A DNA stretch of 64,000 nucleotides from Ruminococcus flavefaciens AE3010. Lineage in GTDB: Bacteria; Bacillota; Clostridia; Oscillospirales; Ruminococcaceae. The position numbers were made by a program, and so were the translations under genes. The stretch covers positions 2,896,501 to 2,960,500 of the forward strand of contig NZ_JAGT01000001.1 of assembly GCF_000526795.1 (NCBI RefSeq), written 5' to 3'. The notes under the pieces were generated by a model. It worked only from the letters and a program-made list of their open reading frames with translations, had not been told where the DNA came from and did not search any database. Positions 2,387 through 48,358 of the stretch are shown piece by piece (position 1 is the stretch's first letter; every line of letters begins with the position of its first letter).

Positions 2387-2857
2387 ATGGCACTCAGAAG
2401 GATTTTAACAGATAAGGACGAGATGCTCCATAAGGTTTGCAAGCCTGTGGAGAAGTTTGACGAGAAGCTGGCACAGCTCCTTGACGATATGCACGAGACT
2501 CTCAACAAGGCTGAGGGCGTAGGTCTTGCGGCTCCACAGATAGGCATATGCCGCAGGATATTCATCATGCATCTTGACGAGAACGACAGCATCGAGGCTA
2601 TCAACCCCGAGGTCACAAAGAAAGAGGGCAAGCAGAGAGTGCAGGAGGGCTGCCTTTCCTGCCCGAATGTGTGGGGCTATGTCACAAGGCCCATGAGCTG
2701 CCACTTAAAGGCTCAGGACAGGAACGGCAACTGGTTCGAGCGCGATTTCACAGAGCTTGGCGCACAGTGCACCTGCCATGAGAACGACCACCTTGACGGC
2801 CATGTATTCACCGAGATAGTTGAAGAATTCTTCGTACCCGAGGAGACTAAGCAATGA
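2387..2857 (+). CDS. def: Peptide deformylase
   Basis: Metalloenzyme that removes the N-formyl group from nascent proteins. All three family motifs are present: GVGLAAPQ at residues 44-51, EGCLS with metal ligand Cys89, and HENDH with His131, Glu132 and His135. The length of 156 residues is normal for a bacterial deformylase. The residue before the HExxDH motif is cysteine rather than the usual glutamine (CHENDH), a small variation. An AAAGGA ribosome site lies 8 bases before the ATG. The last four bases overlap the start of fmt (ATGA), as expected for translational coupling of the enzymes that add and remove the formyl group. Confidence 0.97.
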   Translation: MALRRILTDKDEMLHKVCKPVEKFDEKLAQLLDDMHETLNKAEGVGLAAPQIGICRRIFIMHLDENDSIEAINPEVTKKEGKQRVQEGCLSCPNVWGYVTRPMSCHLKAQDRNGNWFERDFTELGAQCTCHENDHLDGHVFTEIVEEFFVPEETKQ

Positions 2858-3783
2858 AAATAGTTTTTATGGGAACTCCCGATTTTGCCGTACCATGCCT
2901 GCGCACTCTTGCAGAGAGCAGCCATGAGGTAGCGGCGGTGTTCACACAGCCCGACAAGCCAAAGGGCAGAGGATACAAGCTTATCCCCACTCCCGTAAAG
3001 GCTGCGGCTGAGGAATACGGGATACCCGTTTATCAGCCCATTTCACTGAGAAAAGGCGACGACGCAGAGGAGTCCATGAGGATACTCCGCGATATAGCTC
3101 CCGAGCTCATAGTCGTAACGGCTTACGGACAGATACTCCCCAAGGAGATACTGGAGCTGCCGAAGTACGGCTGTATCAATATCCACGCATCCCTCCTGCC
3201 GAAGTACAGGGGAGCAGCTCCCATAAACTGGGTGCTCCTCAACGGTGAAAAGGAGACAGGCGTTACCTCAATGCAGATGGGCGAGGGACTTGACACAGGT
3301 GATATGCTCATAAAGAGAGCCACAGCCATAGGCGAAAACGAGACCTATGAGGAGCTCTACGCGCGACTTTCCGCAATGGGCGGCGAAGTCCTTGCGGAGA
3401 CTATAGAAGCTGTCGAAAAAGGCTCGTTAAAGCCCGAGGTACAGGACGACAGTCTCAGCTGCTATTCTCCTATGATACGCAAGGAGATGAGCGCTCTCGA
3501 TTTCAGCAAGTCCGCCGCTGAGGTACACAATACCATACGCGGTGTCACTGGCTTTGCAATGCTGGAGGGCAAGCGCCTGAAGGTGTTCCGCTCGGAGATA
3601 GCTCAGGGCAGCTTCGACGGTGCCGAGAACGGTGCGATAGTCGATACAGCAAGCTTTGCGGTGAAGTGCGGCGACGGAAAAGCCGTTGTATTCCGCGAGG
3701 TACAGCCCGAGGGCAAAAAACGCATGAAAACAGAGGACTTTTTAAGAGGAAAGAAGCTCGCAAAGGGCGATATCCTCGGATAA
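2854..3783 (+). CDS. fmt: Methionyl-tRNA formyltransferase
   Basis: Transfers a formyl group from 10-formyltetrahydrofolate to initiator Met-tRNA. The N-terminal formyltransferase domain begins MKIVFMGTPDFAVPCL. It carries the catalytic region with NIHASLLPKYRGAAPINW (Asn and His of the active site) and GVTSMQMGEGLDTGDML. A C-terminal domain follows from about residue 205. The length of 309 residues is typical. The start overlaps the def stop by four bases, so both are made from one message. Confidence 0.97.
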   Translation: MKIVFMGTPDFAVPCLRTLAESSHEVAAVFTQPDKPKGRGYKLIPTPVKAAAEEYGIPVYQPISLRKGDDAEESMRILRDIAPELIVVTAYGQILPKEILELPKYGCINIHASLLPKYRGAAPINWVLLNGEKETGVTSMQMGEGLDTGDMLIKRATAIGENETYEELYARLSAMGGEVLAETIEAVEKGSLKPEVQDDSLSCYSPMIRKEMSALDFSKSAAEVHNTIRGVTGFAMLEGKRLKVFRSEIAQGSFDGAENGAIVDTASFAVKCGDGKAVVFREVQPEGKKRMKTEDFLRGKKLAKGDILG

Positions 3784-3793
3784 GGAGAACGTT

Positions 3794-4552
3794 ATGTATA
3801 TCAATATGTTCATGGCACTGGCAAGATATTATCACTATGGCTATTACGGCACACGCGGTGCAGGAGACCATATCGGCATCTACATCGTACTTTATATCGC
3901 TGTTCTTATTATCCCGCTCATTGCGCAGATAAACGTAAAGTCCACATTCAATAAGTACAGCAAGATCGCCAATTCAAGAGGTCTTACCGCCGATCAGGTG
4001 GCAAGAATGATACTTGATTCAAACGGTCTGCAATATGTGCGTATCGAGCATGTAAAGGGCAAGCTCAGCGATCACTACGACCCAAAGGCAAATGTGGTAA
4101 GACTTTCCGATTCTACCTACGGACAGCGTTCAGTAGCGGCTATCGGCGTTGCTGCACATGAGTGCGGTCACGTATGTCAGCACGCCGAGAACTACGGTCC
4201 TATACTTCTCAGAAGCAAGCTGGTACCTGTTACCAATATCTGTTCACATCTCTGGTATATCGTTCTCATAATCGGTTGTATTCTCAGCAGCCTCACTATC
4301 GGAACAGGTCTTATTTATCTTTCTATCGCAATGTTTGCGGCAGTAGTCATATTCCAGACAGTTACTCTCCCCGTAGAGTTCGACGCAAGCAACAGAGCTC
4401 TCAAAACTCTTGCAAATGACGGTATACTTGAACCAAGTGAAGTTCCACATGCGAGCAAGGTACTCAAAGCAGCAGCTCTCACTTATGTAGCAGGACTTCT
4501 CTCATCTATACTCCAGCTGCTCAGACTTCTCCTTTCAGTCAGAAGAAGATAA
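3794..4552 (+). CDS. Membrane zinc metallopeptidase, YugP type
   Basis: Resembles the putative membrane zinc metallopeptidase family (YugP, Zn_peptidase_2). A zinc site motif AAHECGH is visible, with His122, Glu123 and His126. One hydrophobic segment lies near residues 25-45, two lie in the middle (about 145-195), and another is at the C-terminus. The length of 252 residues fits the family. The substrate is unknown. It is often found near fmt and rsmB in Clostridia, and here its stop codon shares one base with the rsmB start (TAATG), so it is part of the same operon. The ribosome site is AAGGAG, 7 bases before the ATG. Confidence 0.85.
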   Translation: MYINMFMALARYYHYGYYGTRGAGDHIGIYIVLYIAVLIIPLIAQINVKSTFNKYSKIANSRGLTADQVARMILDSNGLQYVRIEHVKGKLSDHYDPKANVVRLSDSTYGQRSVAAIGVAAHECGHVCQHAENYGPILLRSKLVPVTNICSHLWYIVLIIGCILSSLTIGTGLIYLSIAMFAAVVIFQTVTLPVEFDASNRALKTLANDGILEPSEVPHASKVLKAAALTYVAGLLSSILQLLRLLLSVRRR

Positions 4553-5844
4553 TGACAGATTCGCGATACCTTGCTGTAAAGCTTCTTGACAAGACCTTTT
4601 CAAGCGGCAGCTACTCAAATCTGCAGCTTGACAGCGGACTGAAAGGCTCTGACCTTGACGACCGCGACAGAAAGCTCTGCTCCGCCATATACTACGGAGT
4701 CATCGAGCGGAAGCTGACCCTCGATCATATCATCGGCGGCCTCAGCTCACGTCCCATAGGGAAGCTTGACGGCATAATACTGAATATACTGCGCTGCGGC
4801 GTGTACCAGATAATGTACATGGACAGCGTACCCGACAACGCGGCGGTAAACGAGAGCGTGGCTCTTGCCAAGAAGTTCCGCAAGACCAGTGCTTCGGGCA
4901 TGGTCAATGCGGTGCTCAGGAATTTTATCCGCAGCGGCAAGGAGCTGAAGTTCCCCAAGGACGCTGTCAAGGCAGCTTCCGTGAAGTACTCCGCTCCCGT
5001 TGAGCTGGTGAAAAGTCTCGCCGACGACTACGGCGGAGAAGCGGCGGAGAACTTTTTGGCAGCTTCTCTTGAAAAATCTGTTACATTTTTGCGTCTCAAT
5101 CCGAATATATGTAGTGAGGAAGAATTTCTTGCAGCACTGGGCGGTATCGAAGCCGAAAAGCTCTTTGACTGCTGCTATGCAGTGAAAAGCGGCGATGTTA
5201 CGGCGACGGAGGCTTTCAGAAAGGGCTTCTTCCACGTTCAGGGACTTGCCTCACAGCTGTGCTGCATGTGCCTTGCACCCACGGAGGAGGACACTGTCCT
5301 TGATATATGCGCAGCTCCCGGCGGAAAGACCTTCACCATGGCGGAGCTCATGAATGGAAAAGGGCAGATATACGCCTTCGACCTTCACGAAAAGAGGGCG
5401 GAGCTTATACGCAAGGGCGCCGAGAGACTCGGTCTCAAAAATATAAAGGCGGCGGCAGGTGACGCAACTGTGTTCAACTCCGAGCTGCCAAAGTTCACAA
5501 AGATACTCTGCGATGTCCCGTGCTCGGGACTGGGAGTCATCGGCAGCAAGCCCGAGATAAAGTACAAGGATATCTCAGACTTTGCGGGGCTCCCCGATAT
5601 ACAATATAAAATAGTGTGCAATGCGCTGAACTACCTTGCGGAGGGCGGTACTCTCGTGTACTCCACCTGCACGGTGAGAAAGGCTGAGAACGAGGAGGTC
5701 TGCGAAAGACTTCTCCGCGAACACCCCGAGCTGGAAGCAGTTGAGCTGCCGAAGCTAATGGGAGCAGACTTCGGCACAATGGCTACACTTATGCCGCCGA
5801 AATTCGGAAGCGGCTTCTTCATAGCAAAATTCAGAAAAAAGTAA
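4552..5844 (+). CDS. rsmB: 16S rRNA (cytosine-967-C5) methyltransferase
   Basis: SAM-dependent enzyme that methylates C967 of 16S rRNA. An N-terminal NusB-like RNA-binding domain occupies about residues 1-135. The Rossmann methyltransferase follows, with the SAM motif DICAAPGGKT, the catalytic motif DVPCSGLG and the second cysteine motif YSTCTV. The length of 430 residues is normal. It overlaps the previous stop by one base. Assignment is based on family motifs and on position between fmt and rlmN, as in Bacillus. Confidence 0.95.
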   Translation: MTDSRYLAVKLLDKTFSSGSYSNLQLDSGLKGSDLDDRDRKLCSAIYYGVIERKLTLDHIIGGLSSRPIGKLDGIILNILRCGVYQIMYMDSVPDNAAVNESVALAKKFRKTSASGMVNAVLRNFIRSGKELKFPKDAVKAASVKYSAPVELVKSLADDYGGEAAENFLAASLEKSVTFLRLNPNICSEEEFLAALGGIEAEKLFDCCYAVKSGDVTATEAFRKGFFHVQGLASQLCCMCLAPTEEDTVLDICAAPGGKTFTMAELMNGKGQIYAFDLHEKRAELIRKGAERLGLKNIKAAAGDATVFNSELPKFTKILCDVPCSGLGVIGSKPEIKYKDISDFAGLPDIQYKIVCNALNYLAEGGTLVYSTCTVRKAENEEVCERLLREHPELEAVELPKLMGADFGTMATLMPPKFGSGFFIAKFRKK

Positions 5845-41073: not shown

Positions 41074-41215
41074 AAGTGTGTAGCTAATGTTGCAGGGGCG
41101 GGCGGCTGTCTGAATAATTTATTATTAGGGGGCGACCGAGTCACCCGCCCACTGCTGTCAAAAAATAATAATCATGTAAAAAGCGGCTTATGCCGTTAAA
41201 TTTTTGGAGGTCACT

Positions 41216-42055
41216 ATGGACGCAAAGCTTAAAAAAGAATTGCAGAAAACAGCCTGCAAGGTAAGAATGGGCGTTATCGAAGGCACTTACAATGCCAAGT
41301 CCGGCCACCCCGGCGGATCCCTCTCGATAAGCGATACACTCACTTACCTCTACTTCAACAAGATGAACAACGATCCTAAGAATCCCGACGCTCCCGACAG
41401 AGACAGATTCGTTCTTTCAAAGGGACATACAGCTCCTGCTCTTTACTCGGTACTGGCTCAGAAGGGCTACTTCTCGGTAGAGGAGCTCAAGTCTCTTCGT
41501 CACATCGGCGCTCTCTTACAGGGACACCCATGTATCCATATCCCCGGCGTTGATATGTCCAGCGGTTCACTCGGACAGGGCATCTCCGCAGCATGCGGCA
41601 TGGCTCTTGCAGGAAAGCTCGACGGCAAGTCATACAAGGTATACACTGTCCTCGGCGACGGCGAGATCGAAGAGGGTCAGGTATGGGAGGCTGCTATGTT
41701 CGCAGCTCACAAGAAGCTGACAAATCTCGTTGCTATCGTAGATAACAACGGCCTCCAGATAGACGGTCCTATCAGCGAGGTATGCTCACCAGAGCCTATC
41801 ACAGACAAGTTCGCAGCATTCGGCTGGCACGTTATCACTATGGACGCTCACGACTTCGACGACATCGACAGAGCCTTCACAGAGGCTGATTCCGTAAAGG
41901 ACAAGCCTGTGGCTATTATCCAGAAGTCCACAAAGGGCAAGGGCGTTTCATTCATGGAAAATCAGGTAGGCTGGCACGGTACAGCTCCAAACAAGGAACA
42001 GTACGATCAGGCTATGTCAGAGCTCAACGCGCAGTTAAAGGAATTGGAGGACTAA
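41216..42055 (+). CDS. Transketolase, N-terminal subunit
   Basis: Thiamine diphosphate-binding half of a split transketolase (pentose phosphate pathway). The block AKSGHPGGSLSISDTL is the transketolase start. The cofactor site is GDGEIEEGQVWEAAMFAAH with NNGLQIDG. The start at ATG 41216 follows GGAGGT; a TTG at 41204 is less likely. The 279 residues match the family of separate N-terminal subunits. The partner gene starts 5 bases after the stop. Split transketolases are common in Bacillota and Archaea. Confidence 0.95.
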   Translation: MDAKLKKELQKTACKVRMGVIEGTYNAKSGHPGGSLSISDTLTYLYFNKMNNDPKNPDAPDRDRFVLSKGHTAPALYSVLAQKGYFSVEELKSLRHIGALLQGHPCIHIPGVDMSSGSLGQGISAACGMALAGKLDGKSYKVYTVLGDGEIEEGQVWEAAMFAAHKKLTNLVAIVDNNGLQIDGPISEVCSPEPITDKFAAFGWHVITMDAHDFDDIDRAFTEADSVKDKPVAIIQKSTKGKGVSFMENQVGWHGTAPNKEQYDQAMSELNAQLKELED

Positions 42056-42060
42056 TTATC

Positions 42061-43005
42061 ATGGCAGATGTAATCAAAAAGGCTACCAGAGAAAGCTACG
42101 GTGAGGCTCTCAAGGAGTATGCCGAGGAATATAAGGATTTAGTAGTTCTCGATGCAGACCTTGCTGCTGCAACAAAGACAGGCATTTTCAAGAAGGCTTA
42201 CCCCGACCGTTTCTTTGACTGCGGTATCGCTGAGGCTAACATGATGGGCGTTGCAGCCGGTCTTGCAGCATGCGGCAAGATACCTTTCGCAAGCACATTC
42301 GCAATGTTCGCAGCAGGCAGAGCTTTTGAAATAGTAAGAAACTCTATCGGCTACCCACACCTCAACGTAAAGATCGGCGCTACACACGCAGGTATCTCCG
42401 TTGGTGAGGACGGCGCTACACATCAGTGCAACGAGGATATCGCTCTTATGAGAACTATCCCCGGCATGACTATCATCAATCCCTGTGACGATGTTGAGGC
42501 AAAGGCTGCCGTAAAGGCTGCTCTCGACTTCAACGGTCCTGTTTATATGCGTTTCGGCAGACTTGCAGTACCCGTGATCAACGACGCAGCAAGCTACAAG
42601 TTCGAGCTTGGCAAGGGCGTTGTCATGAAGGACGGTAAGGACGTTACTATCGTTGCTACAGGTCTTATGGTAAACGAGGCAGTAGAGGCTGCAAAGACTC
42701 TCGAGGCTGAGGGTATCTCCGCAAGAGTGGTAAATATCCACACTATCAAGCCTCTCGATAAGGAGCTCATCTGCAAGTGTGCAAAGGAGACAGGCGTTAT
42801 CGTTACTGCTGAGGAGCACAGCATTATCGGCGGACTTGGTTCTGCTGTTGCAGAGGCTGTTACAGAGTGCTGTCCTGTTCCCGTTATCAAGATCGGCGTG
42901 AACGACGAGTTCGGTCACTCAGGTCCTGCTGTAGACCTTCTCAAGGAGTTCGGTCTCTCAGCTGAGAACATCGTTAAGACAGTAAAGAAGGCACTTAATA
43001 AGTAA
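42061..43005 (+). CDS. Transketolase, C-terminal subunit
   Basis: 314 residues, carrying the pyrimidine-binding and C-terminal domains of transketolase. FFDCGIAEANMMGVAAGLA has the conserved glutamate that activates the cofactor. Other family blocks are GATHAGISVGEDGATHQ and the C-terminal domain with TAEEHSIIGGLGSAVAE. It works as a complex with the product of the preceding gene. The TAA stop is followed at once by a TGTAGGGG palindrome. Confidence 0.95.
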   Translation: MADVIKKATRESYGEALKEYAEEYKDLVVLDADLAAATKTGIFKKAYPDRFFDCGIAEANMMGVAAGLAACGKIPFASTFAMFAAGRAFEIVRNSIGYPHLNVKIGATHAGISVGEDGATHQCNEDIALMRTIPGMTIINPCDDVEAKAAVKAALDFNGPVYMRFGRLAVPVINDAASYKFELGKGVVMKDGKDVTIVATGLMVNEAVEAAKTLEAEGISARVVNIHTIKPLDKELICKCAKETGVIVTAEEHSIIGGLGSAVAEAVTECCPVPVIKIGVNDEFGHSGPAVDLLKEFGLSAENIVKTVKKALNK

Positions 43006-44711: not shown

Positions 44712-44833
44712 AATTGTAGAGTTGGTAAAACATTATGTATAATATTTCCGACTCCGCTGTGTTGATAACGGCTTGAAAAGATAAAAACGAAGTGCATGGT
44801 TTTGGGGGAAATATGCAGAAACGGAGTGGTTTT

Positions 44834-45604
44834 ATGAAAAAGCTTTTGGCGTCTGTAATTTCATTAGCTCTGACATTATCGGCTATGATGCCGATGACGA
44901 GTTTTGCTGCCCCTGATACTGCGCTTGAGCTCGGTGACAGTATTGTAATGGCTTCATCGGTAAATGCCGACTCATATGCTGAGCAGGTAGTTAAGCTCGT
45001 AAACGAAGAAAGAACAAAAAGAGGTCTTCAGCCTGTCAAGGCACTCATATCAATGAATAAGGCTGCAAATATCCGTGCCAAGGAGATAGCTGCTTATTTC
45101 GACCATGTGCGTCCCGACGGAAGAAGTGGTTTGACCGCTATTGAGGATGCAGGTCTTAGCTGGTGGTGGATAGGCGAGAATATCGCAGCAGGACAGCCTA
45201 ATCCCCAGGAGGTTATGAAGGACTGGATGAACTCTGAAGGTCACAGAAACAATATCCTGAAAGCAAACTGCAAGTACATCGGTGTAGGTTACTACGTTGA
45301 CAACGGTTGTCCCTATTGGGTCCAGCTGTTTTTGGATTCTTCCGAAAGTTATACCGATTTTCCTGCAATTAAAGTTATCCAGAACGAGGTAAAACTGGAA
45401 AAAGGCGATATAAACGGCGATAAGGCTGTAAACTCTATCGATGCTTCCGAGGTTCTCACAGAGTACGCAAGCGTTTCCGCAGGACGCGGCTCGCGTTTTT
45501 CTGCAAGTCAGGTAACTGCCGCAGACCTGAACGGAAACAACAGGGTCGATGCAGTTGATGCATCTATGATCCTCGGTATATATGCCAAAAATGCCACTAA
45601 ATAA
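44834..45604 (+). CDS. Secreted CAP (SCP/PR1) domain protein with dockerin
   Basis: A signal peptide (about residues 1-26, ending TSFA) is followed by a CAP domain at about 50-175. It starts VKLVNEERTKRGLQPVK and includes YFDHVRPDGRSG, GENIAAG, WMNSEGHRNNIL and GVGYYVDNGCPYWVQLF, so the His and Glu positions of bacterial CAP proteins are kept. A type I dockerin at about 190-250 has loops DINGDKAVNSID and DLNGNNRVDAVD. The start at ATG 44834 has GGAG upstream. It should be attached to cell-surface scaffolds through a cohesin. The substrate is unknown. Confidence 0.9.
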   Translation: MKKLLASVISLALTLSAMMPMTSFAAPDTALELGDSIVMASSVNADSYAEQVVKLVNEERTKRGLQPVKALISMNKAANIRAKEIAAYFDHVRPDGRSGLTAIEDAGLSWWWIGENIAAGQPNPQEVMKDWMNSEGHRNNILKANCKYIGVGYYVDNGCPYWVQLFLDSSESYTDFPAIKVIQNEVKLEKGDINGDKAVNSIDASEVLTEYASVSAGRGSRFSASQVTAADLNGNNRVDAVDASMILGIYAKNATK

Positions 45605-45700: not shown

Positions 45701-45940
45701 TCAGAGACTTGAGTGGAATGTTCTTGATATAACGTCGTCCTGCTGCTCTTTTGTCAGCTTTACGAAGTTAACTGCGTAGCCCGAAACTCTTACAGTGAGC
45801 TGGGGGTACTTCTCAGGGTGAGCCTGAGCGTCAAGGAGAGTTTCACGTGTAAAAACGTTTACGTTGAGGTGATGACCACCTTTTTCAACGTAGCCGTCAA
45901 GCAATTCAATGAGGTTATCGACCTGTTTCTGGTTATCCAT
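45701..45940 (-). CDS. grcA: Separate glycyl-radical domain of pyruvate formate-lyase (GrcA-like)
   Basis: 79 residues that align with the last part of full-length pyruvate formate-lyase, including [27 protein letters not shown] (radical glycine Gly54) and [14 protein letters not shown]. The upstream gene ending at 46256 encodes the rest of the enzyme and stops just before this region. The AAAGGAGG ribosome site is strong, so it is made as a separate polypeptide. E. coli GrcA (YfiD) is a stand-alone version used to repair oxygen-damaged enzyme. Here it is needed as the only source of the radical domain in this locus. It must be activated by a PFL-activating enzyme, which is not in the window. 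Confidence 0.93.
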
Positions 45941-45960
45941 AAAAATCCTCCTTTTATTTA

Positions 45961-46042
45961 ATTGAGAATTGAGAATGTAGAATGAATGTGTTCGCTTTCG
46001 CTCACGAATTAATAATTCTCAATTTTCAATTCTACATTCTCA
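45961..46042. repeat. Palindromic pair of 7-bp repeat arrays
   Basis: The left half has units ATTGAGA, ATTGAGA, ATGTAGA and ATGAATG. The right half has the complementary units ATTCTCA, ATTTTCA, ATTCTAC and ATTCTCA, so the whole forms a long imperfect hairpin. It lies between the small middle gene and the glycyl-radical gene of the PFL operon. Confidence 0.85.
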
Positions 46043-46047
46043 ATTAT

Positions 46048-46254
46048 TTATAGTTCGTCGTCTTTGTCAATGGCGTTCTCGGTGGGCTGACAGCATGCAC
46101 CCTTTGTGCCGCATATATCTGTACTTTTCACGGTATCCACTTTCAGCTCCGAACCGTTTCCGATTATATTCACATGACCGCTTCCCTGTGCCATGAGCTG
46201 ATCGATGAGATCGGCAAGCTCCGCAGGGGAGTTTTTTTCTTCGGGAGCTGTCAT
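46048..46254 (-). CDS. Small cysteine-containing protein in the PFL operon
   Basis: 68 residues, family not recognised. Its N-terminal part (ELADLIDQLMAQGSGHVNI) resembles the start of the glycyl-radical domain ([19 protein letters not shown]). It then diverges into a tail with three cysteines (ICGTKGACCQPTE) and an acidic end, and has no radical-glycine motif. The start is firm: GAGGAG lies in the last codons of the PFL gene, and the ATG follows its TGA by one base. Translation is therefore coupled to the large subunit. It may be a subunit or a diverged relic of the radical domain. Confidence 0.8.
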   Translation of the reverse strand: MTAPEEKNSPAELADLIDQLMAQGSGHVNIIGNGSELKVDTVKSTDICGTKGACCQPTENAIDKDDEL

Positions 46255-46255
46255 A

Positions 46256-48358
46256 TCATTCTCCTCTGAGCTTGTCAAGATCAAGATCTCCTGCGAATAC
46301 CTCCATGTCCTTGCCGAGAGCGTTAGGCACTATGGAGAAGGTATTGGAGATACCGTCCTGTGCGTGTCTGAACGGCAGCTTTGCAACGGACGAGAGCGAA
46401 GCTACAGCGCCGTGAGTGTCTCTGCCGTGCATCGGGTTAGCTCCGGGAGCAAGTGGAACTCCCTGCTTTCTGCCGTCGGGAGTGTTTCCTGTCTTTTTGC
46501 CGTATACAACGTTTGAAGTAATAGTGAGTATGGACATTGTAGGCACACTGTCACGGTAGGTGTGATGTTTTCTTACGCAGTCCATAAAGCGGCGTACTAC
46601 CTCAACTGCAAGCTGGTCAACTCTGTCGTCGTTGTTGCCGTACTTCGGGAAATCTCCCTCTATCTCATAGTCAACGACTACATTCTTTGCAACGCTTGTT
46701 ATGTTGCCTGCCTTGTCCTTTATTTCGATATCCTTGCGGACAGGCTTTACCTTAGCGTACTTGATAGCCGACAGTGAATCCGCAACAACTGAAAGTCCTG
46801 CGATACCTGTAGCAAAATAGCGCTTTACGTCCCTGTCGTGGAGAGCCATTTGCAGTCTCTCATAGCTGTACTTGTCGTGCATATAGTGGATAACGTTGAG
46901 GGTGTTTACATAAAGTCCAGCCAGCCACTCCATCATATCCATGTACTTCTCCCAAACATCGTCGAAGTCGAGATACTCGCTGTCCACAGGTCTGTACTTA
47001 GGACCTACCTGTAAGCCGAGACGCTCGTCCACACCGCCGTTTATAGCGTAAAGCAGGCACTTTGCAAGGTTTGCTCTTGCGCCGAAGAACTGCATTTCCT
47101 TGCCCACTACCATTGAGGATACACAGCAGGCAATAGCGTAGTCGTCGCCGTGGACAACTCTCATCATATCGTCGTTCTCGTACTGGATAGATGAGGTCTT
47201 GATAGACATCTTAGCGCAGTACTCCTTGAACTTTCTCGGGAGCTTTGTTGACCAGAGAATAGTCATATTGGGCTCGGGAGCTGTGCCAAGGTTCTCCAGT
47301 GTGTGGAGGTATCTGAAACTGTTCTTTGTAACGAGGTGGTGACCGTCAACGTCAACGCCGCCGATAGACTCTGTTATCCAAGTTGGGTCGCCCGAGAAGA
47401 GCTCGTTGTACTCGGGAGTACGTGCGAACTTTACGATACGGAGCTTCATGATGAAGTGGTCGATGAGCTCCTGCGCCTGTTCCTCGGTGAGTATGCCCTT
47501 ATCAAGGTCACGCTGAATGAATATATCGAGAAATGTGGAAGTTCTTCCCAGTGACATAGCCGCACCGTTCTGCTCCTTGACAGCTGCAAGATAGCCGAAG
47601 TAAAGCCACTGAACGGCTTCCTTTGCGTTAGCCGCAGGCTTTGAGATATCAAAGCCGTATATCTCGCCCAGCTCCTTGAGGTCCTGCAAAGCGCGGACCT
47701 GCTCTGCAAGCTCCTCACGGAGACGTATATTCTTTGAAGTCATTCTCACAAGTGAGGTATCTATCTGGTGCTTTTTGTCCTCGATAAGGAGATCAACACC
47801 GTAGAGTGCTACACGTCTGTAGTCGCCGATGATACGGCCTCTGCCGTAAGCGTCGGGGAGACCTGTGAGGATAGCCGAGTGACGTGCAAGTCTCATTTCG
47901 GGAGTGTATGCGTCGAATACGCCCTGATTGTGAGTTTTTCTGTACTTTGTGAAGATCTCCACTACCTCGGGATCAACTTCATAGCCGTACTCCTTGCAGG
48001 CCTGCTGAGCCATACGGATACCGCCGAAGGGCTGCAATGCACGCTTGAAGGGCTTGTCCGTCTGGAGACCAACTATCTGCTCCAGCTCCTTGTCGATGTA
48101 GCCTGCGCCGTGTGAAGTTATTGTTGATATGATCTTGGTGTCCATGTCGAGAACGCCGCCTGCTTCGCGCTCCTGTCGGGAGAGGTCCATGACCTTGTCC
48201 CAGAGCTTTTTTGTCGCTTCCGTAGGGGGTGCGAGGAAGCTTTCGTCGCCCTCATAAGGAGTGTAATTCTTCTTGATGAAATCTCTGACGTTTACTGAGG
48301 TAGTGCTCCAGCGTCCCTCGGTAAAGCCGTCCCATTCCTTTTGCCATGTATTGATCAT
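46256..48358 (-). CDS. pflB: Pyruvate formate-lyase large part, lacking the glycyl-radical domain
   Basis: Converts pyruvate and CoA to formate and acetyl-CoA in anaerobic mixed-acid fermentation. 700 residues with the ten-stranded barrel and the cysteine pair at residues 411-412 (YAIACCVSS). [30 protein letters not shown] and [19 protein letters not shown] are family blocks. Usual PFL is about 750-760 residues, ending with the RVSGYAV domain. This one continues after [11 protein letters not shown] with a novel short end ([16 protein letters not shown]) and stops. The missing domain is encoded two genes downstream. The ribosome site is AAGGAG, and a good promoter lies 30-60 bases upstream. 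Confidence 0.95.

Follow-up and report, generated by a model that had tools for sequence, protein, structure and literature searches.

A split pyruvate formate-lyase in Ruminococcus flavefaciens and the conserved cysteine-tipped protein encoded between its two parts

Pyruvate formate-lyase (PFL) provides a main pyruvate route in gut and rumen anaerobes, and its radical domain leaves the barrel of the enzyme for activation and enters it for catalysis. A locus of Ruminococcus flavefaciens AE3010, in which this domain is encoded apart from the catalytic core with a further small gene in between, raises two questions: whether the free radical protein is a spare or an indispensable part of the enzyme, and what the middle protein, here named MID, contributes to it. 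The locus lies in the window, the whole stretch of 64,000 nucleotides that was analysed, and its features are as follows.

46256..48358, minus strand: PFL catalytic core, 700 aa, with C411-C412 and without radical domain (TIGR01255, PDB alignments, residue numbers)
46048..46254, minus strand: MID, 68 aa, read as a pseudo-radical domain with a cysteine tip (profile matches, dN/dS, ribosome site)
46159..46227, minus strand: MID residues 10-32, homologous by hhalign columns to the first half (helix and strand) of the glycyl-radical domain
46081..46113, minus strand: MID residues 48-58, the cysteine tip C48-x5-C54-C55-x-P57-T58 (alignments, cysteine counts)
45960..46047, no strand assigned: inverted repeat in the gap between MID and grcA3, its arm a dispersed genome repeat
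45701..45940, minus strand: GrcA3, 79 aa, separate glycyl-radical protein with Gly54 in RVSGYAV (NF038360, E. coli PFL alignment)

The sequence-only reading of this DNA had proposed a PFL divided into a catalytic and a radical protein, and this division is borne out together with the details it relied on. The large protein contains the cysteine pair C411-C412 and ends early, stopping 16 residues after the ALGKD stretch at positions 680-684; the radical glycine is indeed Gly54 in the RVSGYAV of the 79-aa protein, and grcA3 is preceded by its own strong ribosome site, AAAGGAGG. MID begins with an ATG at 46254, four bases past the last codon of the PFL core, and its ribosome site is found inside the end of the core gene in the order GGAG, TGA stop, ATG. 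The core and grcA3 genes are in a common reading frame, separated by a gap of about 315 bases with four in-frame TGA stops, and this gap encodes the conserved MID protein from another frame. The arm of the inverted repeat has 18 matches in the genome at two mismatches or fewer, and a reversed control pattern has none.

An automatic ORF search gives a frame of 887 aa across 45701-48358, the frame of PFL core and GrcA3 being broken by TGA stops only. A sequencing error or a recoded stop, either of which would join the frames into one and undo the proposed split, is ruled out by the four in-frame TGA codons, by the conserved frame that intervenes and by an equal break in every one of the 80 named relatives, where core and radical protein lie in different open frames.

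Both pieces can be assigned to families. The large protein matches the formate C-acetyltransferase model TIGR01255 with 1117 bits over model positions 1-666 of 744, which identifies it as the core of this enzyme; it stops ahead of the C-terminal glycyl-radical domain that the model has on the same chain and that is here a separate gene. The 79-aa protein matches Pfam Gly_radical at model positions 50-106 and passes the cut-off of NCBIfam NF038360 (GrcA3) with 167.1 bits against 158, a family whose name covers the radical protein only and not MID. It comprises the whole glycyl-radical domain, equivalent to residues 677-758 of E. coli PFL, and scores below the cut-offs of the two models of GrcA spare parts, TIGR04365 (97.4 against 170 bits) and PRK11127 (107.7 against 145 bits). 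The solved sequences closest to the core are PDB 38la and 38lb, formate acetyltransferase chains which like the core lack the radical domain and which are absent from the 34 PDB sequences matched by the radical protein; sequence searches fit either a natural split or an engineered truncation in these two chains.

A GrcA spare part accompanies a full-length PFL in order to repair it. The 3.7-Mb genome, which is assembled into three contigs and is 98.9% complete, yielded neither a full-length PFL nor a further Pfam Gly_radical domain, and the core and GrcA3 are its only PFL or Gly_radical matches. The earlier remark that the locus has no full-length copy accordingly holds for the genome search as well. 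Because no full-length PFL was found, the radical protein is, judged by the gene content of this genome, an indispensable component and not a spare. One activating enzyme above its cut-off is encoded about 178 kb past the window end.

The same division is the rule in the genus. Sixty genomes were drawn, 56 of which have a TIGR01255 match, and among these 56 the two pieces are separate in 53, while one has a full-length gene, one a core fragment only and one the radical piece only. The lone full-length PFL (G350) comes from a genome that is 81% complete; its branch in the tree is long, and contamination or transfer may account for its presence. The idea that the split is itself the notable feature stands only in part: it is real, and the third gene deserves notice, but a split that is the rule in 53 of 56 genomes and whose radical protein NCBI has already named GrcA3 is not in itself new. 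The further suggestion, that by means of the split a cell could renew a part damaged by oxygen or regulate the enzyme via subunit exchange, is plausible.

The named loci represent the best 80 among 570 relatives confirmed for the radical protein, and the sample therefore favours its close kin. In all of these 80 the PFL core is located directly upstream of the radical gene and in a different open frame, and they span Ruminococcus, other Oscillospiraceae, Lachnospiraceae, Erysipelotrichaceae and Gastranaerophilales. Among the 293 genomes of a class-wide set, 218 have a PFL-family match and at least 16 have GrcA3 as a protein by itself, encoded in a frame 78-106 aa long. The split cores form one group on both trees (support 98 and 97); the first tree, from which seven loci with short cores were omitted, also places the long branch of L154 in this group. 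In two loci the core itself is broken, by a shift between frames in L064 and by a stop in L128. Nested within the group is the full-length PFL of L135, which by its position reads as a re-fusion inside the split clade; it has no junction cysteines and its genome has no MID.

Three minor observations belong to the same survey. The full-length PFL of L159 (genome G285, 2528-4828) is nested in the split clade without the cysteine tip and is likely a re-fusion of core and radical domain. The contig of L026 is labelled Alistipes senegalensis and has a Ruminococcus-type split PFL cluster, so that it is probably wrongly binned. Four loci of the Gastranaerophilales branch (L055, L072, L076 and L079, near 5225) have a GrcA3 in which the radical domain is followed by a long C-terminal extension with a recurring GSM-MPS-F-like stretch.

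MID has no match of its own in Pfam or NCBIfam, no Pfam name appears among the 120 relatives listed in either search, where the names shown are 'hypothetical protein', and no MID-like chain is found in the PDB by sequence. Its origin emerges from profile comparisons. Aligned by hhalign with GrcA3, the MID profile reaches an E value of 9.1e-7 and a score of 39.1, against a maximum of 13.6 over 100 column shuffles, and another alignment pair gives 1.9e-6. Taken on their own, 17 of 43 MID sequences are recognised by NF038360, the GrcA3 model, with a best E of 2.5e-5, and each other NCBIfam family matches at most one of the 43; Pfam Gly_radical is matched by a single one of them at E 0.2. A model of MID alone, run over the 293 genomes, returns 49 rows that consist of 8 MIDs and 41 weaker matches (E 2.6e-5 to 9.9e-4), 40 of which fall within radical domains of GrcA3 or PFL, 39 of them by comparison of coordinates. 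By these profile matches, MID is homologous in its first half to the corresponding half of the glycyl-radical domain. The radical loop RVSGYA with its glycine is absent from the rows of the MID alignment.

All eight of these MIDs occur in the 16 genomes listed with a stand-alone GrcA3 and none in the other 277. The dN/dS ratio of MID is 0.12-0.30 in the seven of nine comparisons that have a finite dS, dS being saturated in the other two, and by this measure MID is under purifying selection and conserved as a protein. As far as sequence can tell, MID is a relative of the radical domain in which a cysteine-pair tip stands in place of the radical half, and not a bystander. The MID of L051 is found with a GTG start only, and for that of L043 a TTG start was used. 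The position of MID in the cluster is not fixed, since L120 has it downstream of grcA3. One weak match of the MID model (G076:C6:133404-133529, L155; E 8.6e-4) lies outside any PFL or GrcA3 gene.

In the tip of MID, C54 is invariant in alignments of 60 and of 43 sequences; a second cysteine usually precedes it at a distance of five or six residues, and P-T or P-N follows. Every one of the 65 MIDs has two to four cysteines, and the 28 core tails that contain cysteines have two to five each, so that a C-terminal cysteine pair of the kind known from the ribonucleotide reductase tail is found in MIDs and tails alike. The full motif C-x(2-7)-C-x-x-P-[TN] occurs in 62 of the 65 MIDs and 13 of the 28 tails, and the C-x(2-7)-C pair in none of 28 C-terminal parts of full-length PFLs (34 loci tried).

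MID and tail replace each other. Tail cysteines were defined as C-x(2-7)-C or CC after ALGK, in a wording chosen after the tails had been inspected, and by this definition the best 80 of 570 loci divide into 58 with MID only and 22 with tail cysteines only, none having both and none neither. Fifteen further class-wide loci, which may overlap with the 80, comprise seven with MID only, six with the tail only, none with both and two with neither (L129 and L133). Where MID is absent, the tail of the PFL core is, by these counts, the carrier of the cysteines instead. The best first tree has seven changes between MID and tail and the second six, four to five of these switches being forced by well-supported branches; a count of independent pairs, five of them on well-supported branches, gives the swap a p of only about 0.06. 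Some tails closely resemble the MID tip (DCSNGACASPTLFEGLD against DCAAGDLACNVPTLMEGMD). Since the cysteines are mostly five or six residues apart in MIDs and mostly four in tails, and since the full motif is confined to 13 of 28 tails and C-x-x-G-A-C to a minority of tails and MIDs, the sequences do not establish that tip and tail share an origin.

The reading that we prefer, at somewhat less than an even chance, is that of a three-part PFL in which MID acts as a decoy radical domain that brings thiols to the active site in the manner of the ribonucleotide reductase tail. The catalytic core would be the first part, and GrcA3, beside which the genome search found no other glycyl-radical domain, would be the second, docking into the core to give the active enzyme. 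The third part, MID, would keep the half of the radical domain that forms a barrel helix and strand in full-length PFL, its radical loop having been exchanged for the cysteine-pair tip. The barrel of a split enzyme could stay open for long, and MID may then fill, in competition with GrcA3, the radical-domain site of cores that hold no GrcA3, with its cysteines placed at the open mouth of the active site where they might keep C411-C412 reduced. In relatives without MID the tail cysteines of the core would do the same job, delivery being by a tether rather than by a decoy domain. Against this reading stand the two loci with neither form of the cysteines, L129 and L133, and the fact that PFL turnover consumes no thiols, unlike that of ribonucleotide reductase. 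Modelled alone, MID is predicted with low confidence (pLDDT 60) to form a helix at residues 10-23 and a strand at 26-33, and the joined model of core and MID has a pLDDT of 53, so that docking is without structural support; the tail forms have no radical-domain-like half, and docking therefore cannot be essential for the function of the cysteines.

The comparison with ribonucleotide reductase concerns a related radical-barrel enzyme, the class I form of which (as well as the monomeric class II form) has a cysteine pair on a flexible C-terminus. The class I pair is believed to re-reduce the active-site disulfide (PMC5704485). NrdA of E. coli K-12 ends in DDGCESGACKI, and comparable tails read CSNGAC, CQGGAC and CASGAC; the exact NrdA-like C-x-x-G-A-C occurs in eight of 28 tails and in only four of 65 MIDs. 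The PFL pair differs in being located on a separate decoy domain or a tail, often with P-T or P-N after it, and in that PFL forms no disulfide at each turnover. The more specific proposal, that the decoy domain of a three-subunit PFL delivers a redox cysteine pair in convergence with the reductase tail and that this thiol service has moved repeatedly between protein and tail, is doubtful.

Other functions of MID may be envisaged. It might be a placeholder or brake that competes with GrcA3 for the radical-domain site and so sets the active share of the enzyme, the cysteines serving as an anchor, for example by a disulfide to the core. Such a role would suit the homology of MID to that half of the radical domain from which a barrel strand comes, as well as the adjoining genes with their overlapping ribosome site. 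However, tail-type enzymes keep the cysteines and not the radical-domain half, so that the cysteines rather than competition seem essential, and we regard a brake as unlikely.

Small iron-sulfur subunits are present in some other glycyl radical enzymes such as benzylsuccinate synthase and hydroxyphenylacetate decarboxylase, and have a conserved four-cysteine cluster site. The cysteines of MID might similarly bind a metal or an iron-sulfur cluster, perhaps one shared across the PFL dimer, and their number, at two to four in every MID and two to five in every tail, could accommodate this. Only two of them are general, however, and their spacing is variable; a four-cysteine set of the kind seen in the iron-sulfur subunits is not conserved in the MID alignment, and no NCBIfam or Pfam iron-sulfur family is matched by several members, which leaves a cluster quite unlikely.

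Thirdly, the cysteines could act as a contact or hydrogen donor with the activating enzyme, loading or quenching the radical of the free radical protein. A PflA-like frame, as read from the sequence, follows grcA3 in 12 of the 15 other class-wide GrcA3 loci and would fit a partnership of this sort, whereas the activating enzyme of the window genome lies far from the cluster and nothing ties the tip to it, making this function very unlikely.

That the split is a functionless gene fission and MID a decaying duplicate of the radical domain is scarcely credible. The position of the break, in the linker that joins the radical domain to the core, would agree with it, as would the re-fusion in L135 and the two loci that lack both MID and tail cysteines. 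Against it, MID evolves under purifying selection, retains its invariant cysteine and stands beside split PFLs in 65 loci, and where it is absent the tail provides the cysteines in its stead.

For the three-part enzyme, the nearest known system is GrcA/YfiD of E. coli, likewise a stand-alone protein, which shares fold and radical loop with the C-terminus of PFL and acts in trans. GrcA/YfiD repairs a full-length PFL, whereas the core described here never has a radical domain of its own and is complemented by a GrcA3 that spans the whole domain. An E. coli core cut at residue 695 is reported to show no detectable binding of YfiD and poor activation, yet to have full activity once activated (PMC8683613). 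A literature search, with most subscription papers and preprints outside its coverage, returned no paper on GrcA3, NF038360, split PFL or the middle gene. The split has already been met by curators, in the form of GrcA3, and perhaps by structural biologists (38la, 38lb); it is known to databases, and MID, annotated as hypothetical, is the unreported part.

A radical protein that is always separate offers a ready natural test system for the movement of the radical domain in and out of the barrel, which to our knowledge has so far been studied with truncated E. coli constructs. Many Oscillospiraceae genomes encode MID next to the split PFL, and it would add a third component to this enzyme. Should MID protect the thiols of the active site, this would be a new answer to the question of how a glycyl radical enzyme endures the time without its radical domain in place.

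Two neighbours of the PFL cluster may be added. The window contains two adjoining ORFs at 41204-43005, which we take to resemble the two halves of a transketolase, presumably a common arrangement, and directly beside the cluster, on the opposite strand at 44792-45604, there is a presumably secreted, CAP-like protein that ends in a dockerin-like stretch.
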